DNA of 64,000 nucleotides from Phoenix dactylifera (Eukaryota; Streptophyta; Magnoliopsida; Arecales; Arecaceae), in assembly GCF_009389715.1 (NCBI RefSeq), contig NC_052399.1:20949045-21013044 (forward strand), in the 5' to 3' direction. Positions 28,910-60,609 of this stretch are shown in pieces (position 1 is the stretch's first letter; each line of letters opens with the position of its first letter). The notes beneath the pieces are model-generated. The model worked only from the letters and a program-made list of their open reading frames with translations, had not been told where the DNA came from and did no database searches. The position numbers and the translations under genes were made by a program.

Positions 28910-30114
28910 GGCGTTTATTCGGGATGGAGGAAGAACGAGATGGACTGGATCTTGCTGATGTGCCTCTACCTCATTTATAGGATAGATCGATGCTATCCAC
29001 TCCAACCAATGAAGAAGCACCACGTAGCAGATAATGGTCCAACACTCAAGATTTACAAGATTTTCCGGATATGCTCAACCTAAGGGTAGTGGTCTTGACC
29101 GGCCGGATGAACGGTGCTCGATTCCTTTCGACGTTTTCCAGCATCTTCTGGCATGGATCGGTCTTGAGACGTGAACCCCACGGCCGGGAAAGAGGAGCTC
29201 TGAGTATTTAAATGCAATCAATGTGGGATGAGCTTGGAAAATATCAACAATGGGCCTCTAGGTGTGAAATTTAAATTCAAGCATCTAAGAGATCTTATTC
29301 TCCACAAAAAAAAAAAAAAACTTCCCATTAAAATAAATAATGATGTTGTTTTTTACATCAAATAAGTGGCTGGTTAGAAATTTGATCCGCAAAGCTTTTA
29401 TGCAGTGATTTGTAATGTGTAGGTGATTAATGGAATTTGCTTTCATTATCTCAATGAAATTGGATGCATTTCCCCCTCCTGTCTCCAATAAAAAGAAGAA
29501 AAAAATTACCATCGGCTCATTTACTATAGCCATTAAAGCTAATTAAGTGTTCTAATCATTATAAGATATATTTCTAACTGGGAGCACTCAATCTTCTCCT
29601 GATGTGGTGCTGCTGATATGAGGTTGTACCAATGAAGAATGAAATGTGCTTGGTGTAATAACCAATCTAATTAAAGCAAAATGAAACTTCACTATAGGCC
29701 TAGCTCATGTGTTTCACCCACAATTGACTCATAATTCAGCCGATTGACCTAAACGAAGAAAGCTAGATTTGCTCTTACCAAATCTCAAGATCTAAATTTC
29801 TCGGAGTGTTGTGGGTATGGTTGGATTTCTAGCCAAACTAAAGCAGAAGCACACTTCCATATATAGTCATGAATACCACTAGCCTTTTTTTGAGATAAAT
29901 TAGTTTCACTATCTTGCCTAATCTTTGGAGAAAAAAAAAGTCATGATTTGAGGTGCAATCTAGTGAGGGGTCGGTCACATTAGAATGCTGTCATGGGTCA
30001 GCCATTTGTGGTCGATATGTCCAGGTTGCCGGCTATTGCGGAAATATATGAGAAGCCTGGAAATGTGAGGGCGTGTGGTCTGGATGTCTCTTTAACAAGA
30101 ACTCCTAGAAAACC
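28910..30114. other. Intergenic, nothing recognised
   Basis: Apart from the TATA-like site noted for the orphan exon, this stretch shows only short homopolymers and open frames without family signal. Confidence 0.45.
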
Positions 30115-30411
30115 CATTTTATGAATCATTTTAATTGTCCGGTAAGTGACCGGGAAGCAAGACATGCATGTTTGGAAACAAAGACATGGAGTTCTTGTTT
30201 TATAAAATCAAGTACATGGAGATACAATTCCCATACAGCATTCTGGTGCTGCTTACGTATAATTTTCTATACAACTCTTGCTTACAGAATCTTTAAACAA
30301 GAAAGTTAATGCACAAGTTTTGAGCGATCGTCCCATGCACCACAATATAGGAGGAAAGTGAACACAATTTCGGGGAGAAAAGAAATCAATCCATCCAATG
30401 CAGTATGACAG

Positions 30412-30743
30412 TCAGTGGACAAGATAGGTCACGAGGAGTGCAACGATCATAAGCACATAAGCTATCCCTAGATCGATTGCCTTGCCTGCATAAAACAAAA
30501 AAAAAAAATTTAAATATGAGAAAGGGAAACATTAATGTTCACTGGATTAAGAAGGAATTCGAATATCCAAAAGAAAAGAATGTTAGAAACGTAAAATAAA
30601 CAAGAAATGGATGCATGCGCACCATCACTGCTCGCTGCTTCCACAACGGTCGATGTGGCCGAGCCTTGGCACAGTAATGGATGAAGGAGCACTGCAAGCA
30701 AGACGTAGGTCAGGATGAGAGCTTGAACTTTGATGGAGCCCAT
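30412..30743 (-). CDS. Arabinogalactan peptide 3 (intron-containing, proline-poor)
   Basis: Two exons: 30,623-30,743 and 30,412-30,485, joined by a 137-bp GT-AG intron that splits a Gly codon. The 64-residue product has a signal peptide (MGSIKVQALILTYVLLAVLL...), a short mature part (SATSTVVEAASSDG) and the GPI-signal tail KAIDLGIAYVLMIVALL characteristic of plant AG-peptides. Unlike copies 1 and 2 it has an intron, and the mature part has no proline, so it lacks the AP/SP sites needed for arabinogalactan O-glycans. It may be a GPI-anchored peptide that is no longer a proteoglycan. A TATA box lies at about 30,864-30,873. The gene lies in unit A of the segmental duplication and is missing from unit B. 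Confidence 0.85.
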
Positions 30744-30863
30744 ATTGGTTCTCGAGCGTACAAGAAATGATGAGGAAAGGCAAGTGGTCAGGTAGAGAAG
30801 TGGTAGGTGAATTGGAAGTGAAGGGTGGCTGATGGTTGGAGAGAGGCCTTCCTACGTGCATCG

Positions 30864-30873
30864 ATATATATAG
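30864..30873 (-). promoter_or_regulatory. TATA box of AG-peptide 3
   Basis: CTATATATAT on the minus strand, about 125 bp upstream of the ATG. It sits in the same ATATATAGAGAGAGCT context (plus strand) as the AG-peptide 1 promoter. Confidence 0.55.
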
Positions 30874-31985
30874 AGAGAGCTCTCGAAGCAATTGAAGTTG
30901 AGATATCTTGTCTCCTTTAGAGTGAACTTAACATCGTTGACCAGTCTCTGGAGAGGTGCAGCGTGTTTCTCGGAAGGTGGGTTAGTACTGATTAATTTGG
31001 AATTGACCGGCCCACCGGTTTTGATTAGATCCAACGTATACCGTACGGGGTTGGTGCGTAGACGTGGAAGTGCAGTTCCTGCAAGCTGCTCATATTCCTT
31101 AGAGAGATATTTGTCCGAGTCGGCTGGCGTCGTTGGATTAGAATCTTGACCGCTAAAGGAGTCTTGGACCCAATGATACGTACGAATACATACATATACA
31201 CACACATATATATATTATATAAATTTTGTCACGGTGAAATAATTTGTTTGGCATGGTAAACAGGCAAACAGCAACTTGAGAGAGGATCTCAATCCTCCAT
31301 TTATCGACGTTAAATGGTGTTGTTTGAACCTGGACATCAATGGCAAACGTGAGAACCTTCTCGGGCTCTTAGTCCACTCCCGGCCAAACCAATGGCATCG
31401 ATTGGAAATTGTTCAGCGACGACGACTACGATGATGATGATGATTGATGAATATAAGAACCACAATATTATGTTCAGACATTTTGTATTAGGCCGGCAAG
31501 CATAGCAAGGATGAGTCAACTTCTCATACAGGCCTTTCGGACCCAGTCAAAGGAAGACCAAAAAGGTGGAAGTGGTGAACAATTAGTTGAAAGAGAGAAT
31601 AGCTTATTAAGATAAAATAGTAAAAGCTCTTGTCATAGTGCAAGTGATCTGAAAACATGAATAGGAAGAGAACCGACAGTGCAACACATCTCTAGCGTCA
31701 TGCCTCAGCTTTCAACAAAAATCTCAAATTTACAACTTATTTAATTAATTTAATCACCTAGTTAGAAAATTTGTTACAAAGCCAATATAATCTTTTTGAG
31801 CATAGCTCAGCGATATAGACAAGAATATCTACAGACAACACATCCATATCAAATAGATTTATGTCCCGTGAAGTTATGAATGGTCGTGGCTTGCTACCTA
31901 CATACATAGCAAGAGGAAGAACAGTAGCATTCGTACTGGTGCACTAAAATGATAGACCCAGAGAAGATGGGAACAGAGAGAGATA

Positions 31986-33506
31986 AAGAGGAAGCAAGAC
32001 CATGGGAGTGGTATGTCCTAGCTGGCTGGCGGAGGGTATCACCGCTTTGGCGTAAGATCTGCAGGTACGTGCCCATGGTCATGTCGCGATGCAGGTGGCT
32101 GATAGGGGATGGCTAGCGAGTTGATGTGGTGGAGGATGCATGGGTGGACGAGATCCCATTAAGGCGTTGGCCGACCCTAGTCCGTGTTAAGGTTGGGGAG
32201 GGACTGCGGATGGATGATCTGCTCCTTTCCGATGGAGGGGGGTGGGATACTCGCCAGATCAGTTAGCTGTTTGGTGAGCCATTTGTAGAGCGGATTCAGG
32301 GATCCCAGTTCCGATACACCCATGCCCAAATATCAAAATTTAGAGCTCGTCTTGTAGATCTACAGTCAGGGTGGCCGACATCTGGCACGTTGTCTAGAAG
32401 AGCGAGTAGTAAGCAGTGGATTTTGATTGGATTTGGTGGTTTGGGTTGCACCCTAGGATTGCTTTGTTTTTTTGGAAGATCGCTTAGGGTCGCCAACTGA
32501 TGAGGCTTTTACTTTTTGAGAGGGGCATGGGCATCCAACCTCAGTGCCCTGAATGTTTGACAAACGAGTCGCTAGATCATGCTATTTTTCAGTGCCACTG
32601 GGCTAGGAGGATCTGGAGGTGAGCAGGGTTTTCCGTGGAGTTCTGGTGTCATGCGACGTCGATCCTTTCTGGAGGTGCTGGGACGTTTGGCAAGGGCCTC
32701 GCATTCTAGACCGGAGGCGTTGAGGGCAACCTATATTGCCTACCAGATATGACTGGCGAGCAACGCATGGAGGTTCGGAGAGTCGAGCCCCCATCCGGGG
32801 GGTGGTGGTGGAGAGGGTGAGGCTGCTAGCTAGCAGCGGAGATCTCTCAGGCGGACCATTTGGATAGACTTTTGATAGCTCGGAACATCTGGAGCTCCAC
32901 CTTTGCTAGTAGAGCACCATGTATGGTGTTTTTCACCTGGGAGCTCCTACCCCCGAGCTTCCTCAAGGTCAATTTTGATGGTTGCGTCCTGCAGGGCGGC
33001 ATAAGGGAAGGTACGGACTTTGTGGTTGGAGGCCCGAGCTCCAGGGTGGTTGCTGCTGGGGGTTACTGAATGTTTGATACCTCGGTGCCCGGAACTGAGT
33101 TGAGAACGACTTGGTCTGGCTTATACTATGTGAGGCATGCTCTACAGACGAGAATGGCCGTTTTAGAGGGTGATTTTGCGAGGATCATTGGGTGGATTCA
33201 GAGGACTTCGGGGGGGATTGGCAATCACCACCCGTTGATGCGAGATATTTGGGCCATGATTCGTGCTGGGCTGATCATACAAGCACGGCACATTTTTCAT
33301 GAGGCTAATGGAACTGCCGATTGGGTGGTTTCTTTTGTTCCCAATCATTCAGAGGGACACCTATGGGTGGGTGAGTGGGAGGTGCCTAGTGCTCTTTGAG
33401 ATGTACTGCTTTTTGATTTTCTTAGTTGTATTCGTGCTCGTCTAGTATAAGTCTTTCGGTTTAGCAAAAAAAAAAAAGAAAAAAAAAAGAGGAAGAGGAA
33501 GCAAGA
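31986..33506 (+). mobile_element. 5'-truncated LINE with a 14-bp target duplication
   Basis: The insert spans about 32,000-33,492 and is flanked by the 14-bp repeat AAGAGGAAGCAAGA (31,986-31,999 and 33,493-33,506). The 3' end is an A-rich tail (33,466-33,490). Unit B of the segmental duplication has the uninterrupted site near 40,790. Two recognisable pieces on the plus strand are a zinc-binding RT-associated motif (CPECLTNESLDHAIFQCHW, about 32,548) and an RNase H-like region (about 32,930-33,399). The RNase H frame is broken by a stop at about 33,067. Confidence 0.85.
32860..33399 (+). pseudogene. LINE RNase H domain, interrupted
   Basis: Plant LINE RNase H-like region. The first part holds FLKVNFDGCVLQGG; the Asp of NFDG is the first catalytic acid of the fold. 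The second part holds ELRTTWSGL, LEGDFARIIGW (second acidic site) and ARHIFHEANGTADWV near the end. A TGA at about 33,067-33,069 separates the two. The polymerase domain is missing through 5' truncation. Confidence 0.75.
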
Positions 33507-33609
33507 GGGTGTATGAAAATATAAACAACATACCATGGCCTTTAAGATATAGAGAGGATTGGAGAGTGACTGGGGATATTACAACCTAACCCAGCATGGC
33601 CAATTCAGC

Positions 33610-33805
33610 CTGAACTGCAAATTCTTAACCGTCCACTCGGTTCCTTGGAAAAACGGACAAGAATATTCCATCCCGAGGTCCAAAAAACTTGGATCTTGCC
33701 TGATCTCCTTCGTTGAAAAGTGGGCCAGGTGTTGGATGACCAACACGATTCGATTCCACGTACGATTCGTTGGAATTGCCAGATCCAGCTAGCATTCCAA
33801 AGCAC
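33610..33805 (-). pseudogene. Frameshifted copy of the exon-like ORF at 41,365-41,561
   Basis: The minus strand carries the same VGHPTPGPLFNEGDQARSKF segment as unit B, but a one-base insertion after the GPRDG codons breaks the frame. The gene of origin is not recognised. Confidence 0.4.
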
Positions 33806-33878
33806 TATGGATGAACCAAGTCATCCACCAGCCTCCTCCTTTCTTGGTTAGAATGGTGTCTACGAATCCTGCAGCTCA

Positions 33879-34093
33879 GATCTCAGAAACAAACTTCCCA
33901 CGTTGTAGAGAAACGAACAGCTTCAAATTCCATTCCATTTTCCCATTCGCCATCCTTTTCTATTTTTTTACAGAATTGACGCATCCGGAGATCTCAGAAA
34001 CAAACTTCCCACGTTGCAGAGAAACGAACAGCTTCAAATTCCCCTCCATTTTCCTACTCGCCATCCTTTTTTGTTTTTTTACAGAATTTGTAT
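33879..34093. repeat. 111-bp tandem duplication in the F-box leader of unit A
   Basis: GATCTCAGAAACAAACTTCC begins at 33,879 and again at 33,990. The copies run to the TTTTTTTACAGAATT block and differ by a few substitutions. Unit B has a single copy (41,656-41,760), so the duplication happened after the units split. Confidence 0.85.
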
Positions 34094-34499
34094 CATGAAG
34101 TGCTCCTTCACGAAGAGCGGAGCGGCGGAGAGGGGAGGGAGATGGGACTGCATGCAAAGAGACATAGCTGCGAGTATTTTCCAGCATCTGAACATCATGG
34201 AGTTGCTGCTGCTGGTCACCTCGAGTCGACCTCTGAACGTCCTCGCTTCCAAGAAGCGTAACATCAATGATTGGAGCCTAATCCTGCATGCGCTCTCTTG
34301 CTCCAGAAGCTCTAAATTAAGGAGCTCCGAAAGAAGTGAGGCCTACCTGCTTTCTGAGATCACTCACTGGTTGAAGTGCTCGGCCTCGTTACAAGCACCA
34401 AAAGATTTTCGAAACCGATGCATTAAAACAAAAGAAAGCATACATCAGCAGAAAGTCTCACAAGGACGGCACTCGACTCCCTGTTTCTGGACCCCGTAA
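34094..34499 (+). pseudogene. Truncated F-box/LRR gene copy (unit A)
   Basis: The first about 41 codons (MKCSFTKSGAAERGG, then CMQRDIAASIFQHLNIMELL) match the start of the intact F-box gene at 41,761. After LLLV (about 34,216) the sequence diverges and there are no LRRs. Downstream matching resumes at about 34,370 with sequence that lies beyond the end of the intact gene (44,222 on), so the F-box core, the intron and exon 2 are deleted or replaced. The remaining open frame to 34,499 is not expected to be functional. Confidence 0.8.
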
Positions 34500-35262
34500 G
34501 TCGGAATCCAGACATCTACGACCCCTGCTGATTAGAATTTCTGTAAAAAGAGCCTCAAAACTCTGAAGCAGCAGCTTCGAAAAGTTGGTACAGTCTCGAT
34601 CTCTAGCCAACAAAAAGGAGGAATTCAGGAACCTGACTCATAACATTCCATTAATTCTGATTATAGTTCAAGATTCTAGTCCCTATCTCCTTCCGTTAGT
34701 AAACTTTTAATCCTCGTTTCGGTCTCCCTGGGGTTTTATGTTGGCAGATACCCTAGAAATGCATTATTATCTCCTTTAACTCCCATGTAATAAGACTGCA
34801 CAATCTTTTATTTTAATAGATTTGGTTGGTCGTCGCCACCCTTATATCAAAAGAATACATAGATAGATAGATATTAAACAAGTCGAAAATTCCGAGAGAA
34901 ATAAACAGACCATAATCTTTGCAAAAACTTACAAAAGTCGTGCAATAATAAACAAGTCTATCTTTGCTGCGATGCGACAGAAGAAGGAGAGAACAGAAAT
35001 ATTCTAAGCATATATGCAGCTTAACTACTGCTGAATCCAAAAACAAGACGATAAAGCAAGAACAGGAAGCGACGGAAGCATACGATTTAAAGAAAGGATG
35101 CAAGCAGCACTGAAACTGAAAACAACGCAGCATGTCCGGTGTTAACATAAGGTAGCGGAAGTTAAACATCAAGACACAAGATGACACAGCATCGCATCAT
35201 AAGGTATCATCGTAACTTAGAGCACCTTGTTCTCATTTGAGAACTCTCAATCTGAAAAACCT

Positions 35263-36566
35263 TTAGCGATGCCGCGCAGGCCTTAATGCCTGAATGTCTT
35301 GGAACTCCTTGAGTATCTCATTATCACTAGGCCTCTTTGATGCTTTCCGCAGACATCTTCTTGCCAAAGCAATTAGGCTCTGTAGCTCCTTTGGTTGATA
35401 AGGAGAAGGGCGCAATTTCTTTGAAAGAAGAAAATCAAGAGCTCTACTTTTATACTTCTTGCCATTGATTTTTACTGCTAGATCTTTGCCCTTCCTGGAG
35501 ATTGGTTTTCTTCCCAACAGCACCACTAGCATCAAAACACCAAATGAGTAGGTATCTATTCCTATGCTGGCACGACCTGCTAAGGGAAAAAAGGTCGAAA
35601 TTTGTAACTTGCATAATAGTTTAACAGCAGTTTCATAAGAGTTTTATATGTGTGAAAATAAATTAAGAATGCACGTCGACCTTTCTTTCTATAGGAAGGA
35701 TCTGTGTAACCAGGTGTCCCCATTGTTTCTGGGGCCTGGATAAAAGTATTTGGGGGCCTAGGTCCGTCGATTGTCGCTCCAAAATCAACCAATTTCGCAT
35801 TCATCTCCTTGAAGATATAAGAAATGATCATGTATATCCTCTAGAAAATATGCAAGCTAAGAGCTAGATAGCATACAAAGAGAGAAGTAAATAAACCTAC
35901 AGGATCGAGCACTATGTTGACAGCTTTTAGATCACGATAGATCAAATTCTTTTCATGAAGATACGTCATAGCTTTTGCTACGTCATGAAGTATATCGACT
36001 CTTTTGTCCCACTCGATCGGCACAACTTCCGGTCTTTCTAAAGCAGAATAAATATTCAGTCAGCTTGAACAGATAAATAAATGGGTAAGCTGCAAAAAGA
36101 TAGATTAATATATACCTTCAGTGCCAAAGATCCGCTCCTTCAAGTTTCCTCCGGGAACGTGTTCGAGAACCAAAGCTTTTTTCTCTTGTCCGTCGTGAGG
36201 CTTGTCATGAAAATAACCAATCAATCTGACGATATTTGGATGATTTAATTTCATGAGATGCTCTCTCTCAATCTGCAAACATCGTAATGGATTAGAGAAG
36301 AAAATTATGCTGACATAAATGTATGGATTGTTATATAGTTTATCTAGCTAGTTTAATTACCTCCCATAGGTGAAATGTTTTAAGCTCTCTGAAACTATAC
36401 TCCTTAACTGCAACTTGTTGGGCCGACAATCCACCTCTGAAACCATCAGGAATAAGTCCTGCCCACACCCTACCAGATCGCCCACTTCCTATCACTACGT
36501 TACCCGCTTGATCCAAAATATGTATAATTTCGGGTTCAGTGAACACTAGGACCGGATCCGGCTGCT
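35263..36566 (-). CDS. Receptor-like cytoplasmic kinase (Ser/Thr kinase), 5' end unresolved
   Basis: Exons on the minus strand: about 36,361-36,566, 36,116-36,272, 35,901-36,037, 35,681-35,807 and 35,263-35,576. All introns are GT-AG and the frame is intact throughout. Kinase features in order: glycine loop GSGRSGRVWAG, the VAVK lysine, MKLNHPNIVRLIGYF, hinge region LVLEHVPGGNLKERI, catalytic loop IYRDLKAVN (Tyr in place of the usual His of HRD; the Asp is kept), DFGA, an activation segment with GTPGYTDPSY, DTYSFGVLML, and a C-lobe ending LARRCLRKASKRPSDNEIL. It should be an active RD-type kinase. No transmembrane segment is seen in the exons found. The first exon begins at an acceptor with no ATG in frame, so an upstream exon is expected before about 37,065. 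The gene lies between the two duplication units. Confidence 0.85.
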
Positions 36567-37090
36567 CTGAATGTCATGAAAATATGTCGTTTAAATTATA
36601 TATAAAAAAAAAACGAAGAAAATTTTGCCGAGCTTATTTATTGGATGGCCATCGAGATATATTGGCAGTGGCGCATATCTCAATAAAAATTTCAAAGCAT
36701 CATCTCATCTCAAACGTGGTTATATGAGAAATGACGCTTCCAACGGCAAGTATATATATATAATTGTTTCACGTCGCTCCATGCATGAAATGATGGAGTA
36801 GCAACGATAATTAACTTGAGTAAAGGCAGCAAATTAATAACCGACCACTGGTTTCTCCTGCTTTCTGTTTCTTTGGATCAGCCAGCATCCCAGTGGATGA
36901 GCCAGCCCGTCCCTTCCCTTTGTCGGCCTGTAAGCGAAGAAGTAATTAATAATACATATAGAAGTCATCAAAGAAGAGGAGAGTTTTTTGTTTCTTCTTC
37001 TTCTTCTTCTAAGAAAACACTAATTTTTACCATCAGAACTTCTCCCTGCCTCTTCCCCTATGAATACTGCTTGCTCTCCTGAACTTCTCC

Positions 37091-37100
37091 TTTTATAGCG
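37091..37100 (-). promoter_or_regulatory. Candidate TATA box of the kinase gene
   Basis: CGCTATAAAA on the minus strand. A transcription start near 37,065 would fit a leader or first coding exon located between there and 36,600. Confidence 0.45.
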
Positions 37101-38892
37101 AAAATGGGCAGCATGACTCACTATTTCTCACCAACAGTCCTTGTCTTCTTTCTCCCTCCTGCAACCATTACTCTGAAAAAGAAGAAGAATATTCGCCCAC
37201 TACTCTGCAAACAAATCAGGGCAGACCTGCCAAGTTTGTTTTATTTTTTCTTTTCTTTTCCAGAAGCTTCATTTCATTTCGTTGCAATGTAATTATGGGG
37301 TCGTCGACGTCCTTTTCACCTGGATTTCAGGGCTGCAAAACCTGCAGGCCCCTGACAAACATCATCTTTTGGTGAATGAATGGCCGCGCCTGAATGCCAG
37401 CTTTGCTGCAAAATAAATTAAACAAGTTTTAATCTTTGCTGCATTTTGTATAATAACAACAAGTAGTTGTGATTTCCACCCCAAATATAGGAGAAGCGTG
37501 GAAATGCGAGATGTCTGCTCCCGGATTCCGAACTCCATTACATGGAATTCATAGCTTCTATTCGGGCATTTGCTCATTCGTGGTTTGACGCATCCAAGTA
37601 AAAGAAAAGAAAACCCAGCCCATTTATGAATCATTCTAATTCTCCCTAAGTGACCGGGAAGCAAGATATGTTCGGAAACAAAGTCATGGACTTCTTGTTC
37701 TATAAAATCAAGTACATGGAGATACAGTTCCCATGCACAGTATTCTGGTGTTGCTTACGACTCTTGCTTGCAGAATCCTTAAACAAGAAAGTTATTGCAC
37801 AAGTTAATTTGAGTGCTCGTGATCCCATCACAATAGGAGGAAAGGGAACATCAATGGTAAACAGGCAAACAGCTACTTGAGAGAGGATCTCACTCCTCCG
37901 TTTATCGACGTTAAATTGTATTGTTCGAACCAGGACATCAAAGGCAAACTTGAGAACCTTTTCGGGCTCTTAGTCCACTCTCTGCAAAACCGATGGTGTA
38001 GATTGGAAATTGTTCAGCGATGACAACATTAACGTTCAAACATTTTGTATTTGGCCAGCAAGCATGGCAAGGACAAGTCAACTTCTTGGACCGAGCCAAA
38101 GGAAGACCAATGGTGGAAGTCGTGAACAAATGTCAAGCCCATAACTAGCTAATTAGTTGAAAGAGAGAAAGGACTATTAAGATAAACTAGTACGTAAAAG
38201 CTCTTGTCATAATGCAAGTGATCTGAAAATATGAATAGGAAGAGAAATAACAGTGTAACTGTCATGACCCGAACCCAACACTTAAATTCGGCACACGACA
38301 CGCCCGCATAAGCCCTAGAGTAGTGCTCTAAAGACCATGCAAGGCTTAAGATGACAAAAAACTGATAACATCTCAATAAATCAATTAATCGAAATAGATA
38401 AAGTCAACATATCCAATTAATCAAACTGGTGCAGTTACAAAATCTTCAAATATTCATCGGTATCAAAAAAAGATAAACTAACTAGTTAATAACTCTGATA
38501 CTCGTACTCCATGCCAACCTATTTGGAACTATGCTTTCTGCAACTCTGAAAAAGAGAAAGAAGAAGAAGAAGAGGTTGCGAGCTTTACAACCCAGTAAGA
38601 ATATTCACACATCCACACCAACATAATAATAATAATATAAGTTTGAAAATTATAAGAAAACATTGTACACATCATAAAATTACAAACCGACTATTAATAA
38701 TACTCGAATAATCAATATACAGTATGTATATCAAATACCAATAGATATACAACTACATAAGGATAAAATATCATATGACATCTCATAAATCTTCAATAGT
38801 ATTTTTCAAGACTTTTTATTCCATTTTTTTTTAACTTGATCCGGATCAATTATCTTTCCAATTTTGAGCTAAATCCTGATCACGTTTTCAGC

Positions 38893-39125
38893 CTGTGATG
38901 AGGCAATCGATAGTACCACATTTTTAGCTTGTGATGGGGCAATCGATAGTATCACATTTTCGGTCTATAATAGGGCAGTCGATAGTATCACATTTTTAGC
39001 TTATGACGGGGCAATCGATAGTATCACATTTTTAGCATATGATGACAATCGATAGTATCACATTTCTAGTATGTAATAGGGCAATCGATAGTATCACATT
39101 TCCATCATATAATAGGACAATCGAT
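38893..39125 (-). repeat. 36-bp tandem array inside solo LTR 2
   Basis: About seven copies of a unit with TCACA-N9-TGTGA and GGGGCAATCGATAGTA. Two further diverged units lie near 39,218-39,290. Confidence 0.85.
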
Positions 39126-39860
39126 AGTAACAAGATAAGCCCAAAGTTCTTGTTCATTTAATTAAGTTCACATCCACACACCATTTTCTTTTTATTTTCG
39201 ACTTTAGACTAACCACGGTCGCGTTTCCAGCCCATGATGGAGCAATCGGTAATATCACGTTTCTAACATGTGACGAGACAATCGATATAACATGGTTAGT
39301 CTAGAACACCACATTCATTAGTCTGATCATGCAAGTGTAAGTTATGCTCATATAAGTATCCATCATACCATCAATCACATGTATACTTGATAAAAATATG
39401 ATTTAATATAGAAACCATCATAAAATTATTCTTGATTCTTACTTATCTTGATCATTAGCACATAATCACATTATACATATATAGGTGCAAAAATATTTAT
39501 ATCATGCAGTTTAGTGTATAAGAATTCTTATATCTTTGCTGGCAACCAAACAAATCAATTACCTGCCCACACCACGATCTGCAAACTGGGATCCGCAGAA
39601 CCCTGCTCAACGTCCTCTTGTCCAACAAATTATTTTCCTACAAAACCAAGTCAATATTAAAAATTATCTAGGATATTTGACAACCCAGAACCTTCTATTG
39701 ATCCTCTAAAGGGTTCACCATCACCTAGCAACCCAGGACTATCCAGTAGTCCTCACAAACAATGATCTCTCCGTATCAAGCTAGAGAAAGAAAACACCTA
39801 CAAGAAGAGAGAGAAATTAGAGAGAGAAAAAAACAAGGAGAGAGGAAGAGAGGAATGGGA

Positions 39861-39861
<1 letters not shown>

Positions 39862-39920
<59 letters not shown>
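39862..39920. repeat. (CT)n microsatellite within solo LTR 2
   Basis: About 59 bases of CT dinucleotide with one TT interruption. It lies in the same position as the shorter CTCTCTCTCT tracts of the other P1 LTRs (48,672 and 52,976), so it grew from an LTR motif. Confidence 0.85.
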
Positions 39921-39924
<4 letters not shown>

Positions 39925-40838
39925 TCCTTCTTCCCAGAGGAAAATGCTTGGCGACGGCGGTCGCTCATAGCCGACGCCCCTTGTGGTCGTTTCCCCCTAG
40001 CAGTCCTCTGGTTGGCCCAACGATGAACACTTTGAGTTCTTTCCCACGGCAAGCTTAGAGATCCAAGTCTCTAATGGAAGGATTTCCAAAGACGAAGCCA
40101 AAGGAGAGGGGAAGAGAATATTTTATAGATCGAGACTGACTCAAACTAGGTAAGGTTTGATCACTCTAGAGTCTAGACTCCTCCTTCCGGTGGACTCGGA
40201 GGGAGAGAGTCGGAATAGGGGAGGAAGAAGACTTTGATCGGAAGTCTCCCTCTCCTACCACACGGGCCGACCGGTGCTGTGGCCCAGAAGCCGACCCACG
40301 CCCAAAAATAATATGGGCTCTTACAGTAACACATCTCGAGCGCCATGCCTCATCTTTCAACAGCATTTAAAAATCTCAAATTCAGTGTTTGTTTAGCCAA
40401 TTTGATACGCCTAGCTTGGGAATGGTACGCAGTTGGACTTGCCAGCCACATGCATCCAACAGAGGTAAGGCAATAAGGAGGTGCACTGTGGAAACTATAG
40501 CAAAGTTTATCTGAGATAAGATCGAATTTTATATATGATACCAGGTAGAAAACATGCAACTATGGGTGTTACTACAAAGCCAATGCAATCTTCTTAAGCA
40601 TAGTCCAGCGATATAGACAAGAATATCGACAGACAACACTTTCACATCAAGCATATTTATGATCTGTGAAGGTATTGATGGTCGTGGCTTGCTTTCTGCA
40701 TTAACAATAAGAGGGGGAACACGTATTGATATTGGTGCACGAAAATGATACACCCAGAGAAGATGGGAATAGACAGAGATAAAAGAGGAAGCAAGAGGGT
40801 GCATGGAAATATAAGCAACATACTACGGACTTAAAGAT

Positions 40839-41325
40839 TTAGGGCTCGTTTGGTTCGCGGGAAAAGAAGGAGGGAAAGTGTGGTCAACGGGAAAGTAATG
40901 AAATGCCTCTTGTTTGGTTGGAGTTTTCAAAGGAGAGAGAAGGGAAAGTTGTATTCCCATGGGAATGTGATTCTCACATTTCATGGGAAAGTCTTTCCCA
41001 TGAGAAACATGGGAAAGTTACTTTCCCATGAGGCGGGAATCGCTCCATTTTTACTTTTTCCCAAAAAGTCCCTTCAGCATTAAAGAAGCATTAAAGAGGC
41101 ATTAAAAACCTAATTTTTATTAAGGGCATAATAGGAATTATATATAACTTTCCTAGGAAAGTGGATGGCCAACCAAACATAAGCATCTTGGAAATTTGTC
41201 ACTTTCCCATGGTCAACCAAACATGCCAAAAGTACTTTCCTAGGCATCCTCTTCCTAGAAATTTGTTTCCCAGGAATCATATTCCTAGGAAGAAAAATGC
41301 TTCCCGCGAACCAAACGAGCCCATA
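40839..41325. mobile_element. Tourist-like (PIF/Harbinger) MITE
   Basis: The element spans 40,842-41,322 (481 bp). Near-perfect terminal inverted repeats start GGGCTCGTTTGGTTCGCGGG and end with its complement. The flanks are TTA at the left (40,839-40,841) and ATA at the right, fitting the TWA target preference. Unit A has no insert at the matching site (about 33,548). It has no coding capacity, and the interior is rich in TTTCCCATGGGAA-type palindromes. Confidence 0.85.
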
Positions 41326-41364
41326 GAGATGATTGGAGAGTGACTGGGGATATTACAACCTAAC

Positions 41365-41561
41365 CCAGCATGGCCAATTCAGCCTGAGCTGCAAATTCTT
41401 AACCGTCCACTCAGCTCCTTGGGAGAACGGCCAGAATTTGCCATCCCGAGGTCCAAAAAACTTGGATCTTGCCTGATCTCCTTCGTTGAAAAGTGGGCCA
41501 GGTGTTGGATGACCAACACGATCCGCTACCACGAACGATTCGTTGGAATTGCCAGATCCAG
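41365..41561 (-). other. Exon-like conserved ORF, gene not recognised
   Basis: The minus strand is open with a plausible acceptor (ATGCTAG) near 41,562 and donor (TGG|GTTAGG) at 41,364. It encodes GNSNESFVVADRVGHPTPGP, then LFNEGDQARSKFFGPRDGKF, then WPFSQGAEWTVKNLQLRLN. The composition looks like genuine protein and the same segment is present, frameshifted, in unit A. No other exon was found nearby, so it is probably a fragment carried with the duplication. I cannot name the family. Confidence 0.35.
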
Positions 41562-41760
41562 CTAGCATTCCAATTAAAGCACTATGGATGAACCAAGTCA
41601 TCCACCAGCCTCCTCCTTTCTCGGTTAGAATGGTGTCTACGAATCCTGCAGCTCAGATCTCAGAAACAAACTTCCCACGTTGCAGAGAAACGAACAGCTT
41701 CAAATTCCACTCCATTTTCCTATTCGCCATCCTTTTTTCTTTTTTTACAGAATTTCTATC

Positions 41761-43473
41761 ATGAAGTGCTCCTTCACGAATAGCGGAGCAACGGAGAGTG
41801 GAGGGAGATGGAACTGCATGCAAAGAGACATAGCTGCGAGTATTTTCCAGCATCTGAACATCATGGAGTTGCTGCTGCTGGTCCCTCTGGTGTGCCGATC
41901 ATGGCGTGCCGCATCCCTCGACCCCCTCTGCTGGTCCACCCTCGACATGAGGCTCATCGCCGATTTAAAGGACTACTGGGAGTTTTCCGATCCCAACATT
42001 AATGGACGAGTACATATGCGAGTGTTCAAAGCGGCCGTCGACCGCTGTGGAGCAGCAGTCAGATGCTTCATCTTCTCCATATTTGTCCCGCCGACCGATG
42101 AGGAGTTGGAGTATATCTCTCAGAGGTTAGATTCTATCATAATTTTTTTGTCATGGAGTCTACTCACTCGATCGAGTGAGGTATTGAGGTGCGACCAGGA
42201 AATATATATTAGCAATCATGCTGTTAATTGTTATTTTTTATATTTGCACCTAGCTGTCCCAATATCAGCTCTGGTTACCCACAAGCATCCCTCAATCCAT
42301 CAGCAGTAGTGCTGAGGAATCAAACCAGCAGCCTGTGCTGTTGCCTCGGTCTCATATAATTCCACCATGACTTTTGTATGTGTGGGAAAAAATCCATTTT
42401 ACTGACCCAGCATAAGCCTTCGTTTAAGCTTCAACCTCGAGAGCTGGGTTGAATCTCCTCATTCACCGGTCGACACTCTCTAACGAGATGCATGCAGCTG
42501 CTATCCTTCCCAAAGATGTTATCCTTGCGCGCGGTAACTGAGATGGGGCAGTATCATCCGAACTAGCATTGGTGGTCTATATACGAAATCTGACCACACA
42601 AAAGAAAAGATGTTCTAGATCTCTTATTGCATGATCAATTTTTATAGTTTTGGCAATCACTTCTCAAAAAAGGTTTTCGACATTCATTAAAATATTCTTG
42701 GCAGATGTCGCAACCTCAAGCAGCTTGTCTTGCCCAACTGTGAGCTCCTCTCAGCTGACGGCTTCTGCAATGCCTTGAGCAATTGGAGTGAGCTCGAGGA
42801 TTTAGCTATGCACCCCAAAGACACATATCTATGCGGTTGGCCTCCGAATAGATCCCTCCCTCCGTTGTATTTCTCGAGGATTATGGAGGGCATCGGCATG
42901 CACTGCAAACGACTGATCAAGCTCAGACTTTTGAGTTGTATCAGTCTCTCCAACGCATCAGAAATAACAAAACACATCCCTTGGCTCAAGATTCTGGATC
43001 TCTCATTTGCGCCAATATCGGAGGCAGGCTTTGCACTTATTTTAGAGGGCTGCAAGCAATTGATTCACCTAAATATCGCTCACTTCCGCAGTGATACTGA
43101 ATATCGAGGCAGCGGTTGGTGTCCAGCTGCCGGTGAATTCAATCCGGAGCTCATCACCAGAGCAGCTCATGGCCTCAAGGAATTCATCCGGTGCCACCCA
43201 GATGAATGTGACACGTGCCAATCTATGTTCCCTGATCTGCACCTATTAGATGTCAGATATTTTTGGCTATTAGAAGGGCATCCAGTTTCGTTGGCAAAGG
43301 CCGCCTTTATGGATTTTTATCCAATCGATATTGGTTGGAGCTATCTGAATGCTCGGTTCATCCCCAAATATATATCGACCACTTTAATATGCAACCGAAG
43401 AAAAATTTTCTGGCATCGCGGAAGGGTGCGGCGGGTCTATGAAAAAACCTATGGACAGAGCTTGATTCTGTAA
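41761..43473 (+). CDS. F-box/LRR-repeat protein
   Basis: Two exons, 41,761-42,125 and 42,705-43,473, with a 579-bp GT-AG intron that splits an Arg codon. The product has 377 residues. The N-terminus carries an F-box at about residues 18-62 (MQRDIAASIFQHLNIMELLL, then VCRSWRAASLDPLCWSTLDM), the part that binds SKP1 in an SCF ubiquitin ligase. Leucine-rich repeats follow: CRNLKQLVLPNCELLSADGF, HCKRLIKLRLLSC, IPWLKILDLSFAPISEAGF and CKQLIHLNIAHF. The C-terminal part is less repetitive and contains CHPDECDTCQSMFPDLHLLD. The ATG is followed by an uninterrupted frame and the leader matches unit A. Substrate unknown. The truncated copy is at 34,094. Confidence 0.9.
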
Positions 43474-44107
43474 TGTGTCTTGCCTAGGACATGTTTTCCT
43501 GACAATTTTATTTCTTACTCTTTGATTTCACAAATCAAACAAGACAATAAACGAACCCTTCTCTGCTGATATCTAAATTTGTTATTTTATCGTTATTTGA
43601 CAAAATAATTTTTTATGGTCAAAATAAATTTAATTTTTAAGAAGAAAGAATAAAAACACAAAATAGTTGGAGTTAGGCCCATGCAACTACTCCTGCTTCC
43701 GCCCGCGGTATATGAAGGCCCCTGGAGGAATGCTAGAGTTAAATCTCGCCACCTCAAGTCGAAGCGCCGAGCGACCTCCAAACATCCTGACAACCATAAG
43801 GCTAAATAGATTAAATCTGTTGAAATCACTACTTATTCCAAAAGCTTAAGTTTTTAGGACAAGTTGTGATTTCAACATGGTATCAGAGCAAAAGTACTAA
43901 GTTCGAACCATGTCTCCGTACTATTTAACTCCATTATTAAAAATTTCACTTGGACTCACCCATTAAAAAAAAGTCCGACCCATATGTATCAGGACAAATG
44001 GTGATTTCAATAAAATCTTTGGCAACCACTTTCCACTAAGGTAATCATGAATAGCCATTATTGATTGTTTGGTTGATTTATTAGAATAATTGTGAAAAAG
44101 TGAAAAA

Positions 44108-44140
<33 letters not shown>

Positions 44141-44613
44141 CAGCATAATTGTGCACATCGGCTATGATGTGATTGCCTTGCAAGAATCAGAGTAGGAGGG
44201 TCCATCATTGGGTTAATGAAGTTGATGTGCTCGGCCTCATTACAAGCACAAAAGAATTTTGGAAACCAGAAAATACTGCTGTCTCCAGGATGCACTAAAA
44301 CAAAAGGAAATATGCATCAGCAGAAAAATCTCAAAGGGACGGCCGTTTACTCCCTTGACCGGACCCTGCAAATCGGAATCAAGTCATGCATGGCCTCTGC
44401 TGATTACTGTAAAAAGAGCCTCAAAACTCTGAAGCAGCAGCTTCAAAAGGATGGTACATTCTCTATAGCCAACAAAAAGGAGGATTTTAGGAGTGATATT
44501 AGTATCAGTAAACAAATCGTGAAAATGAACAGAATAAATATTTTGTAAGAGTATTTTAGTACCCATATTGTTGCTGTGCAGAGCTTGTATTTAAGGCTGT
44601 TAACGTGTTTCAA
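43474..44613. other. Downstream of the F-box gene: retrotransposon remnant and microsatellite
   Basis: 43,820-43,990 contains TGGTATCAGAGCAAAAGT (43,881 on), the primer-binding-site motif complementary to initiator tRNA-Met, beside a repeated GGTGATTTCAA/GTTGTGATTTCAAC block. This looks like a degenerate LTR end plus PBS. A (GA)n tract of about 30 bases lies at 44,109-44,139. No gene is seen, but 44,222-44,485 matches unit A. Confidence 0.5.
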
Positions 44614-47600
44614 TTATTCACCGTCATCCTGGGTTTGCAGGTTCATAGGTTCAGGAATATCTTCTGTTGGTGTATGCACTGCGTCATGATCTAGCTGCAA
44701 CATCAGAGTTGATAAACAAGTTGAAAACGAATAAAACCTCTTCAGCATCTTCATTTGCTGAAGCTACATTGTCTCTACACGATTGGTTGATGCTGTACAA
44801 AGAGGAAGATTTATATACCTGGCTTCATGCATGAGGTTGTGGAACCTAACTCATAACATTCCATGCTCATTATAGTTCAAGAATCTTGTCCTTATCTCCT
44901 CCCATCAACTATACTTTCAATCCGCGTTTCAGTCTCCCTGGGGTATTATGTTGGCAGATACCCTAAAAATACATTATTATCTCCTTGAACTCCCTTGTAA
45001 TAAATACAATCTTTTATTTTAATAGATTTGAGTGGTCATTACCACCCTTATATCAAATAAATAAATAAATAATAAACAAATTGAAAATTTGAGAGAAATA
45101 AACAAGCCAAATCTTCGCAAAAAAACTACAAAAGTTGTACAATAATAAACAAGTTTATCTTTGCTCCGATACAATAGTAGGATAATGGTTAGGCTACATA
45201 TGATCGTTCATTGCCTTACTATTCTTCACAACCAGGAAAGACTGGACTGTCAAGTTTAGCATGAGATCAGTCTTGACATCCATGATCAGCCATATCCTAC
45301 AACTGATATTTGGATATCTAAAAATCCTTCAAATACATTAGGATTCCAAAGAGGATATCTATTCTTTAACTTGGTTTGGTTAGGTCACCTTTTCACTGAT
45401 ATACCAGGTAATCAGACAAGAGTTACAAGATTAAATCGAATGCTTATACTTCAGGTCGAACTCAGATCAATCCCAATCTTATCTCAACCTGGTCCATGAA
45501 CAAGTATAATGATGAGAAAGCAGGACTAAGGTGCAAGAGGAATAAGAAATTCAGAAAATGACTTAGATATTAACTTAACAATTTCGTTTTGAATGTTACC
45601 TACAGCCATTAATAAGTGGCTTGAATTTTATAATAAATGTCACCTATTTGAACTGTTGTTGATGCTCTGACCTAAACCTGCTCTGATATCAAAATTTTCT
45701 AACCCATGCTTGGGACAAATCAAGTTGATAAAAATTCAGTTGGTGGGTTAAAACAAACATGGTCAATCTTCGTCTAGCAAATACACAGAAATAATTTCAA
45801 CATCAAGCAGTGCCTTGGGCCAATCAATATAGGCAGAAGTCACAAAAGAAACTCGAGACTCCAATACATCAAGATTGCAGCTCCTAACTGCATGGTAAGA
45901 GAGGAGGTGGCAGTGGGGCATATCCAAGCAATGATAGAGAAAGTGAAGAGGAGAAGGTGAGGAAACAGGAGGTGAAGATCACCAATAGGGAGAGCATGGG
46001 TTAGGTAATGGTCAGGGATTTAAATTTTAAGAATATGAAGATATCCATTGTGCGATACTATATTATGTCATATCATAGCATTTTACATCGTATCAAGTCA
46101 TATCATATTAGTCACTCAAGCTTCATTGGGGGTTGGTTGAGGCCAAGGGAAGCCCTCGCATGGTCAAAATCCATCTCAAGTTTAAGAGGATGAGCCTAAC
46201 ACAATTCACTGGACAACTTTGTTCAGTTCCACTGGCGAGCTAATCTAAGCATCCGAGCTCCTAGCAGTCAAAAGTTAAGAACGAAGGATCATAATCTTGA
46301 TTTCTGCATCCTAAAGCAGCAAGCCCAGTCCAAAATAATTAGTAAAAACAATATCGATCCTTTCTTTCCAAGGCCAGAAACTAAACCACCTTCTCAGCAT
46401 ATTTCTACATTAAAGCAGTACTTGGTACCCTTCACACAATCTTAACATAAATGAAGCCATTTTTCTATGGGGCAGAACAATCAGCAACATTTAGCCTTTA
46501 TGAACTACAATAAACAAGGCATGATAGAGGTATTTCTTCTAACATCACTATGCTGTGATTTGATAAAAATGGGTTCTCATGATGAAAGCAAAACAGATTT
46601 CTATAGCTTGCCTTCCTACATAACCTGAATTATAAAGTTGAAAGGAGAAACCATAGAAAACCTTAGAAATCTATCTTTACACGCCAGAATAATCAATAGA
46701 AGACACTACATATACATGTATCATAAAGCATGCAAAGTCTGTTTACTTGAAGCATATATAAAGAATTGCCCATAACAACCAAAACTTTACATACCAACAT
46801 AAGGAGCAGCACTGCAGCAATAATGCATTGAACTTGATAAAGCTCTGCAAGACTCCAGCCTTCATGAAACATCAAGTAAGAAATCATTTGCAAGCTGCAC
46901 ACTTATTAGTAAATTGCAAACAACATGGAGCTCTCAAAAAAGATCAGCATGTCAAGTTAATATAAGATATGACATAATGAGAAGGCAAAAAGGGCTTTGC
47001 GTCTTTTAACCAGTACTAGAGTATAGAAATTAATCACAATAAAATTGCTCTCCATGCTTTGATCATCTTCAAAAACTTTTCCAATTGCAGATAAACATTC
47101 TTGCCAGCATTCTGTCTGAATAACCTTTTATCTGCAGATAAGAGAAGCATGATCAAACCATCATGGTAGAGTGCTATCAACAAGGTTCTTACTGCAACTA
47201 CAAATAAAATTAATTTTATGAATTACTGATTGTACCAAACAAAGATGATAAAATCAGGTTCTTCCTGGAGAGTCTGACCTGAGACATTTCCACCTGACAA
47301 AAAAAGGAAGGGTAGGGGGAGTGGATCTGGAACATAGGTAATACCTTTTGCTGCCAAATGCACACTTAGACCGTGCAGTCTACAAGATTAGCAGAACTAC
47401 AGAAAGGGGAGATGAATTTCACCAAGCTCACAATTGAGGCAGTGACAATACAAAAATCATTTAGTACAGTCCTGGTGGAGCAAAGTAAGCGGGTCAACAC
47501 CATGTGGTACCATTGGTAGTCACAAGCAAAAGCTGTCCAATGGCTTAAAAACAAAAAGAAATGACTCATAATAGGTTGTCCAAACAGTCAATTTTGTTGC

Positions 47601-50600
47601 ATAAGCATAAGCAATGGGAAATGACCATTCAGTACAGTGACTGTATACAATACTATATGTCACGCCCCGAACCCAGTATCCGGGTCCGGTACGCGACCAG
47701 CTGCATGAGCCCTAGAGCAGTGCCCTAAAGATCATGCAAGGCCTAAGATGAAAAAAAATCTGATAATTCCACAGTTAATCACTTAATTCAAATAGATAAA
47801 TCCAACATGTCCAAATAATCAAATTGGTTCAATTACCAGATCTTCAAATGCTCATCGGCATAAAAAAAAAAAAAACTAATTAACTAATTAATAACTCTGA
47901 GACTCGCACTCCGCGCCCAACCCATCAATATCTATGCATCCTGCAACTCTGAAAAGAGAAAGAAGAAGGGGGGTGAGCTTTACAGCCCAGTAAGAACTCC
48001 TACACATCCATACCAACACAATAGTAATATGAACTTGAAAACCATGACAAATCGATGCACATTTCATGAAATCATAAACCGGCTATCAAAAGGCTCAAAT
48101 AATCAATATAAGTATGTACGTCAAACATCAATGAAAGTCCAGCCACATAAGAATGATATAGCATATGATAGCTCATAAATCTTTCTTACTGCTTTCAATG
48201 CCTTTTATTTTCATTCTATATTAACTCGATCTGAATCAATTATCTTTCCGACTTTGGGCTACATTCCGATCACGTTTTCGGCCCGTGATGGGGCAATCGA
48301 TGGTATCACATTTCCAGCCTGTAACGGGGCAATCAATAATAACGAGATAAGCCCAAAGTCCATGTTAATCAATTCACAAACACACATCAATCCCTTTTTT
48401 CACTTTATTTCCGACCTAGACTAACCACGGTCACATTTTCGGCCCGTGACAGGGGCAATCAACATAACATGGTTAGTCTATACCACCATATCCATAAATC
48501 CAATTATGTAGGTATAGGTTATACGCATACATGCATCCATCATAATACCAATCACAAGCCAATACGATCAAAATACAATTTAATATAAAATTATTTTTGC
48601 TTTGTCTGGATCATAGCATATCATACATATATGGAAAGGGAAAAGGGAAGAGAAGACCCAAATAAACTCCCTTTCTCTCTCTCTCTTCTTCATTCTTTCC
48701 GACAGAAAGGGGGAAGATGCTTGGCAGCAAGCGGCCTACGGCCTGCGATGCCCCATGGTCGTCGGCCCGTGGCGGTGCCGGCGGTGCGTCATGCTCGACG
48801 ACGGCCGGCTGAACGAAAGAAGGGACCAAGCCACCGAGAGCAGGATCGGTTCTCCTCAATCCGACAGCTTACTGGCCATATTCCCAAAGAAGTAATGGCC
48901 CAAAGATGAAGGAGAAGGAGGAGAGGGTGCTCACCTTGCCTCCGGCGAGTTCCCTCGGCTAGATCGGTGGCGAATACTCCGATCTCCTCTCACAGATTGC
49001 TTGCCGGTCAATCCTCCTATGGAAGGGCTCTTGGTTGATGCCCTAGGGAGGAGGGGAAAGGGAGTCTTTATAGGCAAGAATAAGGCTCAATTTAGGTAAG
49101 ATTTGAGCCTCGTTTTCCTTTGGTTTTTTTTTTCGATGGATTCGGGAGGATGAAGATGGGTTTGAAACAGGGGAGGGAGAAGACCTGATTGGGAGTCTCC
49201 CTCCCCCTTCTCATGGTCGGATTGATACCCCAAGCCCAATAAAATGTGGGCCTTTATATTCTCCCCCCCTAAAAAAAATTTCGTCCTCGAAATTAGCATA
49301 CCTGAGGTTTCAAATAGTTGTGGATGCTTGACCTTCATCTCTTCTTCGAGCTTCCAAGCAGCCTCTCTTTCGAATGATTGTTCCATTGTACTTTCACAAA
49401 AGGAATGGTTCGATGCCGTAGTACCTGATCTTTTCGGTCCATGATTCGTGTTGGAAACTCCTCATAGGTCAAATCCTCAGGAAGATGTAATGGCTCATTT
49501 GCTATCACGTGACTTGGGTCTGGGACATATTTTTTTTCAACATTGACACATGAAAAATATTGTGCACACTGGATAAAGCCGGTAGTAAAGCCAGTCGATA
49601 TGCCACCTCTCCAACCTTGTCCAAAATCTCAAAAAAAAACCAACATACCTAGGGCTCAATTTACCACGAATCCCAAATCTCATCACTCCCTTAGTGGGTG
49701 ACACTCTCAAGAAAACATGATCCCCAATTTAAAATTTCAGTTTTCTCCTTCTATTATCAGCATAACTCTTTTGACGACTCTGAGCTGTACGAAGTCGTTC
49801 TCTGATCACTTGCACCTTATCTATGGTTTATTGCACTATCTTTAGGTCTAATAATTTTCTCTCGCCCACATCATCCCAACAAATAGGAGATCCATGTTAA
49901 AACATTCCAAGTCTAAGACCAACCAAGGAATCATCAACCGTTAACGCTAAATTTAAGATACCCAAGATTCTTCCAAAAGTTGTCAACAATAGAAGAACCC
50001 ACTGGTGAAAATTACATAGCTACCTCTAGATCATCCATAGAATCAACAACATTCTCCTCTACTGGAAATTAACTCAAGTGTTCCATCATAATACCTTTTA
50101 AATTAAATATTAATGTCTTTAACCAGTTTCAAAATAACTCAAACCACCACACTTTCACTACGCACTCTGATTTAATTCATTAAATGCTCTAAAGCCTCTA
50201 AATGATTTATGACTGAAATATCACTTTGTACTAGGAGTAAGAAAATCTAAATTTTAAAACTTTAATTGAGCAGAACCTCCAGATCTCTCTATCCTCAATT
50301 TATGTAGAGTATACTTACCATAACTAAGTCTAAAGCTATTATTCAAGTTTAAGGTCACTGCATGATCTCCACAACTTATAATCCAAAATATTTAGGTTTA
50401 ATTAACTTTGGATTTTCTTAACAATTCGATTAGACAATCTAGATTGATCTTCCTTCCAACAGGATTTACTCCAAATTCAATGGGTTAAAAGTTACTGAGC
50501 CAATATCACTATGATTAGAAATTAACTCTATCAACCTTCAAATCTTTCTTTACCAAGATTCTTAATATGTATGATCAATGCTATATATGATAACTCACAT

Positions 50601-58972: not shown

Positions 58973-60556
58973 ATGGCGAAGAAGAGCAAGTCGGAGGCGA
59001 CGCGGCTGGACGAGGTGGATCGGAGCGTGTACTCGACCTTCTGCGGCGCGGCGAACTCGCTGTCTCAGATCTACACGCAGGCGATGGCGCAGCAGAAGGT
59101 CGCCTTCCAGGCCGGAGAGCGCCACGCCTTGGTTTGTCTGTCCTCCCTTCTCCCTCTCACTCTTCTTGCTTTCTCTCAGCTTCTTTTGTTTGCCGATCGG
59201 CGATGAGATATGTCTGCCCCATATGCGCCTCTTTTCTTTGGCTTTCTTGTGTGGGTTTTTCGTTGATAATAATGGAATCCTTTTGTTTTTCCTTTTCCTT
59301 TAAAAGGAATTATGTTCTACTTGATGAATGGGTTTTAGTCGACGGAATAATCTATTTAGTGGGGCGTATCCTATGATTGTTGATATACTTTCAGATCCAA
59401 ATCTTTTTTTCTTTTGTTTTGATTCAGTTGCTTGTTAGCTTTTATAAAAGAAAGGAAAATTTGTTGGTGTGTTGTTCGATTTTGCTTTAATCATGGGGAA
59501 ATCTTCTGGTGCACGAGCTTCTCTTTGCTTAATAAATCTCAAGTGGCGATAAATTTGTCCTGCACTGTGAGGAATTTTTCCCCTCTTTAGTTACTGTGTT
59601 TATATTTGTTTCTGTCTTCTTCTTCTTTTAATGCTATCTTTCACAGATAATCCCCCCCCCCCCCCCCCCCCTTCTTTCTCCTTCATTGGTGACGGTCCCT
59701 TGGAGTATTTTTCAAATGCTGCATACCGCAATTAAAGGGGTGATAGATGAGCACTATTTCTCACTTTTTATTATGAATTATAAGCATGCTCTAACTAGAA
59801 CTTGTCATTCTTCTTATCATAGACGTGGAAAATTGAAGTGAGGTTACTGGTCCTTTCTTGGATCAAAGGTTTTATCTACTCCAGTAGTGAATGTACTAGG
59901 ATAATGATAACAGTAGACAACTCAGAACAATGCCTTTCTTTTTATGGATTTTTTGCCTTGAATCTATTGCAATTGAAATTTTTGTTTAGAGTGGATCCCA
60001 GGCTGTGCCAGTAAATTAATCAAGTGTGACTTTCATTTGCCTGTACTTTTCATATGTCAATTTTGATCTATATGGATTTTCTGTTTTATGAAAAATTCAT
60101 AAGCAAGCTGCACTCACAAATTCAGATTAACTTCAGCCCTGATGAGCTCTTCACAAAGGTCTTGCCTTTTAGCTAGTAGTTATATAGTTTACTCCATTTT
60201 AATTTGGGGATGGTACTTTCAGTTTCAAAGCATTTTAATTTGGGGATGGTACTTTCAGTTTCAAGGTCTGTTTTGCTCTCCTGGGTTTTGTGCTCTCTTT
60301 GTGGTTGTTATATTGGTTATGCTGCATAAGCTTCTTACTGTTTCTGAATTTATGTTTTATGCAGGAAAAACTCTACCAGTGGATTCTGAGGCAGCATGAG
60401 GATGGGGCAAGGGTGACTGCAGCAGATGTCATGACTTATTTGCAGGTTTTATTAATTTCTTATTCTTTCAATTTGATATTTTTGTGGTTTTATGCTGTCT
60501 GATTTGACATATAGCTTTTAGTTTACCCTCTTCAATAATTACAGCTCAAGCTTCAA

Positions 60557-60609
<53 letters not shown>

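Follow-up and report, generated by a model that had tools for sequence, protein, structure and literature searches.

Tandem units carrying an AG-peptide gene and an F-box-like gene in Phoenix dactylifera: probable alternate gene loss and a young shared tract

The window analysed here, a stretch of 64,000 nucleotides of the Phoenix dactylifera genome (C8:20949045-21013044), contains two direct units, A and B, on either side of a kinase-like gene (Table 1). Unit A carries an AG-peptide (AGP) gene; unit B carries an F-box-like gene, the first 41 codons of which recur in A. A first-pass annotation had read the pair as a duplication followed by complementary loss of the two genes. In comparisons within this one genome (773,078,369 bases, 2391 contigs), 30107-34973 and 37608-45170 matched each other nine times by self-BLAST, always in the same orientation and order (E 2.5e-8 to 0); a 100-bp duplication in A makes two of these matches overlap in B. 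Pairwise alignment recovered the same block order, so the proposed collinearity of the units is borne out, and a local comparison (28 bp, E 1.6e-6) carries their left edges to 30042 and 37483. Outside one tract, considered below, the Kimura two-parameter (K2P) distances of the successive blocks are 0.18, 0.14, 0.27 (97 sites), 0.20, 0.16 (56 sites), 0.18 and 0.19, the second and third values belonging to block b2 before and past an inserted long terminal repeat (LTR). With the second copy of the 100-bp duplication (33989-34088) and gap columns left out of all counts, these seven trimmed blocks differed at 205 of 1479 sites and were homogeneous (heterogeneity p 0.094). Blocks b6 and b7 adjoin in A and are separated by about 350 bp in B. 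With several blocks that are unique, collinear, on the same strand and about equally diverged, the pair is a tandem segmental duplication. No second copy of the kinase-like gene was seen in the window, including after B (two exons by tblastn; DNA at 1e-6).

Table 1. Positions, in the window, of the two units and of the features in and around them
Feature	Start	End	Strand	Remarks
Unit A	30042	34990	+	Same block order as B (self-BLAST, pairwise alignment)
Unit B	37483	45187	+	Same block order as A (self-BLAST, pairwise alignment)
Block b1 in A	30042	30375	+	Pairs with 37483-37856; K2P 0.18 over 30107-30375
Block b2 in A	31253	31725	+	Pairs with 37857-38259, resuming at about 40326 after the LTR
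Block b6 in A	34370	34640	+	Pairs with 44221-44500; K2P 0.18; partly present in C9
Block b7 in A	34628	34990	+	Pairs with 44838-45187; K2P 0.19
AGP gene of A, exon 1	30623	30743	-	Splice site by eye
AGP gene of A, exon 2 with stop codon	30412	30485	-	Splice site by eye
Piece in A, absent from B	30376	31252		Contains the AGP gene and its upstream region
AGP upstream segment	30944	31035		Also in C9, collinear with b2; absent from B
F-box-like gene of B, exon 1	41761	42125	+	Splice site by eye
F-box-like gene of B, exon 2 with stop	42705	43473	+	Splice site by eye
Truncated F-box gene in A	34095	34217	+	41 codons; 37/41 residues identical to B
A-unique 152 bp	34218	34369		Between the break in the F-box gene and b6; keeps the frame open
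Young tract in A	33553	34217	+	Pairs with 41323-41882; promoter side and first 41 F-box codons
100-bp duplication in A tract	33878	34088	+	Copies 33878-33977 and 33989-34088; single in B (41655-41754)
B sequence between b6 and b7	44491	44840		Absent from A; part like C9 after its b6
Dispersed repeat in A, left part	31726	31999	+	Resumes at about 33507-33581; copies L003, L006, L007, L008
LINE 3' fragment in A	32000	33494	+	A-rich tail; empty site in B
Probable solo LTR in B	38260	40325	+	Ends TGTCATGACC...CTCTTACA; 5-bp target duplication GTAAC; empty site in A
MITE in B	40842	41322	+	Terminal inverted repeats GGGCTCGTTTGGTTCGCGGG; left edge of young tract; empty site in A
Kinase-like gene in A-B spacer	35266	36573	-	Exon frames; Pkinase E 9e-4 on last exon, below cut-off
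Older AGP relic left of A	28483	29681	-	3' untranslated region, intron, exon 1 remains and promoter in common with the C9 AGP gene

With its two exons joined, the AGP gene of A encodes a product of 64 amino acids that matches PF06376 above the cut-off (E 1.7e-15; 56.9 bits against 25), and its retention in A stands as first described. The mature core of an AG-peptide is expected to bear proline for hydroxyproline-linked glycans. The stretch between the presumed signal and anchor, QGSATSTVVEAASSDG, contains by eye zero prolines, so the name AG-peptide derives from the profile and not from a glycosylation motif. Block b1 ends about 37 bp past the AGP stop codon, and part of it is therefore probably the 3' untranslated region of the gene. 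The piece that holds the gene is missing from B, as had been annotated; it measures 884 bp by the BLAST ends and 877 bp by alignment (30376-31252), and the junction in B is clean, with about 2 bp of junction homology (by eye). Apart from relatives of exon 2 and a low-complexity stretch, the genome holds no other copy of 871 bp of this piece (23 of 23 candidates scored). The upstream segment matches contig C9 at 74.5% over 94 columns (E 5e-8 and 5.5e-9 in two comparisons); because it is common to A and C9 and missing in B, B suffered a deletion. Judged by this comparison, the absence of the AGP gene from B is a loss and not a gain, and the AGP side counts as fractionation, in which duplicates left by a segmental or whole-genome duplication are lost alternately. 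That loss did not leave the plant with a single AGP gene, since there are at least 37 PF06376 places in the genome at E 0.01 or better (some may be broken). Five of them lie on C8 within 36 kb, from 20944015 to 20979530, among them an open, canonical, intron-less copy at window positions 2030-2206 with the core APSPTSDG; the earlier statement that one functional copy of each gene survives thus fails for AGP. Another of the five, at 7783-7941, is an intron-less copy with a changed C-terminus, probably frameshifted (by eye).

The gene of B is open over 377 amino acids in two exons, in agreement with its description as intact. Its label had to be narrowed from F-box/LRR (leucine-rich repeat) to F-box-like, because the scores lie below the curated cut-offs, narrowly for the F-box-like and F-box profiles (23.0 bits against 24.3 and 20.2 against 20.5) and by far for two LRR profiles (17.8 and 18.3 bits against 27). 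In A, five of the 41 codons that remain differ from B and four of these change the amino acid, which gives no sign of coding constraint. The frame in A runs on past codon 41 into unrelated sequence for a total of 134 codons, and the rest of the F-box gene, up to block b6, is missing. The 152 bp that follow the break matched neither B 41880-44230 nor C9:21602601-21622400. As a separate observation, 43817-43988, downstream of the B gene, is a common dispersed element with many genome copies, mostly 82-88% alike.

The shared 5' end of this gene lies in a tract whose low divergence was absent from the first-pass account. It differs between A and B at 25 of 552 sites, about threefold less than the 205 of 1479 in the other blocks (Fisher p 2.8e-10), and the blocks flanking it on either side are significantly more diverged. 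Its left edge, placed by a change point at 33557 (2-lnL range 33540-33676; 0 of 300 permutations reach the fit, on a 4-site grid), is within a few bases of the site of the miniature inverted-repeat transposable element (MITE) in B. Such low divergence implies that the tract was exchanged or copied long after the duplication, and we read it as ectopic gene conversion or repair copying, with mechanism and direction presumed. Every F-box-linked base common to A and B sits within it; since all the shared F-box sequence is young, the fragment in A cannot prove that A once had a full gene of its own. Within the tract, the two 100-bp copies of A, about 11 bp apart, differ from each other at 7 of 100 sites and from B at 5 and 3, respectively, so that this internal duplication is about as old as the tract. 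It is possible, though we hold it only tentatively, that conversion tract, internal duplication and truncation were one event, a single failed repair. Copying of about 0.6 kb from B into a break in A would have stuttered and come to a halt at codon 41, with end-joining next to b6. A distance between the copies at least as large as that between A and B in the tract is what failed repair predicts, although 100 sites cannot prove it.

An external reference for both units comes from C9. Relatives of the flank gene at 58974-63239 occur on C9 (81% over the last exon), C491 (61%) and C11 (57%), and on all three contigs AGP genes lie near them, 14 to 106 kb off. We take C9:21.59-21.62 Mb, inverted with respect to C8, as the recent homeolog; its order is AGP gene, match to A 30944-31035, part of b2, part of b6 and a tail like B 44572-44725. 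C11 was considered as an outgroup unit and set aside: it has AGP genes, but no match to b1, b2 or the F-box gene in L057 or L071. Over 350 columns without gaps, taken from aligned stretches of b2 and b6 that were chosen by hand, the pooled distances are 0.125 for A-B, 0.365 for A-C9 and 0.361 for B-C9, and the changes polarised against C9 are even between the units (17 and 16). The much smaller A-B distance makes the unit duplication younger than the C8/C9 split. The palm whole-genome duplication is placed at about 75 million years ago (MYA) and the split from oil palm at about 65 MYA in the account cited (PMC10787024). If the C8/C9 split is the palm event and the rate was steady, the units would have duplicated roughly 25 MYA and the tract would date to roughly 8-9 MYA; these ages predict a single unit in oil palm. 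The spacer at 37330-37462, just before B, is 71% like C9 after its b6, which points to an earlier local rearrangement. It was tried as the A counterpart of B 44560-44740, and both resemble C9; their direct similarity is at noise level, unlike A-B elsewhere, and we took them as an older pair.

The differences in size between A and B are largely due to later insertions, for each of which the other unit shows the empty site. From the form of their ends we take the one in A to be a fragment of a long interspersed nuclear element (LINE) and those in B to be a probable solo LTR and a MITE. The LINE fragment is flanked by a 12-bp target duplication, GAGGAAGCAAGA (31988-31999 and 33495-33506), and its RVT_3 match is weak (E 0.0033, below cut-off); the MITE has a copy 94.7% alike in L027. 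Further copies of the LTR-like element of B occur in the window at 47655-49256, 51525-53557 and 5244-6292, two of them 93-95% alike, in direct orientation and with internal 72-bp minisatellite-like repeats. Elsewhere in the window, an imperfect block of internal repeats at 56100-58170 has many matches that are 64-81% alike; a stretch in which GGGTCGGGTC-like words abound breaks it at about 57040-57610.

Taken together, these data favour a tandem duplication, an AGP deletion in B, late conversion, F-box loss in A and transposon insertions, a reading to which we assign a probability of about two in three; the odds of its rivals overlap in part with it and with one another. A segment estimated at roughly 6 kb gave rise to the direct tandem pair at a time later than the homeologous split of C8 and C9, itself taken to be the palm whole-genome duplication. 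B then lost its 877-884 bp, with the whole AGP gene, by simple deletion, as the C9 homeolog shows. Much later, the 5'-end sequence of the F-box gene, observed today as the young tract, would have been homogenised between the units, presumably by ectopic gene conversion or repair copying with its left edge at the MITE of B. Most likely, a full F-box gene of A was deleted, whether in that same failed repair or at some time after the conversion, and ordinary transposon insertions moved the blocks apart. We favour loss in A, since fewer steps are required if both units had the gene at that place, and since no donor was found. Several points weigh against this reading. No F-box sequence of duplication age was found in A, so the full A gene is presumed; a genome search with the 152 bp at the break returned only the 152 bp itself, so that no source was found; and the block to the left of the tract has only 52 sites and belongs to a repeat. 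In addition, the evidence that A deleted the b6-b7 tail, which it lacks and which resembles C9 in B, is weak (44572-44673, E 0.005; 44637-44725, E 1e-4), although such a deletion is probable. To these are added the state of C9 and a model of constraint, which bear on particular rivals.

The state of C9 bears on an account in which B gained the F-box gene only once the units had been duplicated and a full copy never existed in A: a break in A would have been repaired with about 0.6 kb copied from B, beginning in the shared dispersed repeat and then end-joined, and the fragment of A would be transferred, not lost. The confinement of all F-box-linked sequence of A to the young tract fits this account, as do the 1.6 kb between b2 and b6 in C9, where no F-box sequence was found, and the lack of any F-box match on C9, C11 or C491 at E 0.001. 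We nevertheless consider it unlikely. It requires a gene insertion followed by transfer to the matching place, and no donor is seen, the F-box matches in the genome outside A and B at E 0.001 being all only 28-50% identical; the homeolog, moreover, could simply have lost its F-box gene. The state of C9, with an AGP gene and no F-box gene, is also the condition that the first-pass annotation had named as its own refutation, an outgroup single unit without one of the two genes, subject to the same possibility of loss in C9. A different explanation attributes the low divergence of the tract to purifying selection on the promoter and 5' end, leaving plain duplication and loss. The tract does hold the promoter side and the start of the open B gene, and if B is treated as frozen and A as neutral, 25 or fewer differences are only moderately unlikely (p 0.0125); this value still disfavours selection, however, as do the four non-synonymous changes among the five coding differences and the sharp left edge at the MITE, and we regard this explanation as improbable.

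Two further alternatives concern the origin of the units and of the AGP gene. Were the AGP gene inserted into A and B the original state, the mere 230 bp or so that C9 holds where C8 has b1 and the AGP gene would be accounted for. Yet b1, whose end is no more than 40 bp from the AGP stop codon, is retained in B, while the C9-shared segment 30944-31035 is missing there; one deletion explains both, no donor copy was found, and we think an insertion very improbable. That the A-B matches are shared transposons alone is hardly tenable, and we reject it. Blocks b3 and b4 and the first approximately 30 bp of the tract are indeed a dispersed repeat, the repeat-derived stretches shared by the units being 31726-31999 and about 33495-33552, with polarised changes that are uneven (26 in A, 14 in B). 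But four other collinear blocks (30107-30368, 31253-31685, 34370-34630 and 34628-34973) were seen nowhere else among the scored candidates (40 of 258 and 40 of 571), nor was the coding block, although b2, like b6, is partly present in C9. Four unique collinear blocks make the A-B match more than shared transposons.

An older layer of AGP history lies immediately to the left of A. The relic there lacks the body of exon 2 and has an internally deleted exon 1, and its C9 counterpart, with matching untranslated region and promoter, is at about 21.621 Mb. The AGP gene of A stands nearer to the C491 gene (0.669 and 0.806 for exons 1 and 2) than to the C9 gene (0.621 and 0.736), over just 124 and 72 sites. 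These approximately 196 sites hint that the AGP gene of A predates the C8/C9 split. The relic, taken with the lack of the AGP gene of A at the corresponding place in C9, suggests that C8 kept one AGP gene and C9 the other, which would be complementary loss between homeologs. If both AGP genes do predate that split, they would offer a clearer case of complementary loss than the one proposed for A and B.

In the proposal for A and B, the tandem duplication, the AGP deletion in B and the truncated F-box gene in A hold, and an ancestral unit with both genes does not follow from the data; likewise, the 41-codon fragment of A is present, and the claim that A lost the remainder is unproven because the fragment sits in the young tract. 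In the strict sense, reciprocal gene loss occurs between lineages. Alternate loss within one genome, as here, is fractionation together with gene conversion and not reciprocal loss between lineages. As in fractionation generally, two collinear segments would each have lost different genes; unlike the usual case, the segments are in tandem and only two genes are involved, one of them from a large family. Duplicate genes causing hybrid lethality in Mimulus (PMC5896889) and duplicated sterility genes in rice (PMC5555463) resemble the reading favoured here in that different duplicate copies were lost, but the accounts cited concern divergent resolution seen in species crosses through a hybrid phenotype, whereas A and B lie in one genome and two different genes are involved. 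The tract, bounded and much more alike than its flanks, resembles interlocus conversion between duplicates as described in the account cited (PMC4467073), although, unlike a typical case, its right edge is the deletion break, so that the tract may once have been longer. Repair-mediated duplication of proximal DNA (PMC2671141) likewise involves copying of nearby DNA and a local duplication at the break; the account cited describes it in vertebrates, and for the tract of A it is a possible reading only.

The locus is real, well resolved and ordinary for a plant genome, in which tandem duplication, fractionation and gene conversion have acted together. It provides a readable example of two plant tandem units diverging, in which a homeolog polarises a deletion and a conversion tract gives a gene fragment an apparent age below that of its duplication. 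If the single-event reading of the tract were true, gene conversion would itself have caused gene loss. In practice, a coding fragment shared by two units can give a wrong date for their duplication and can pass for complementary loss.

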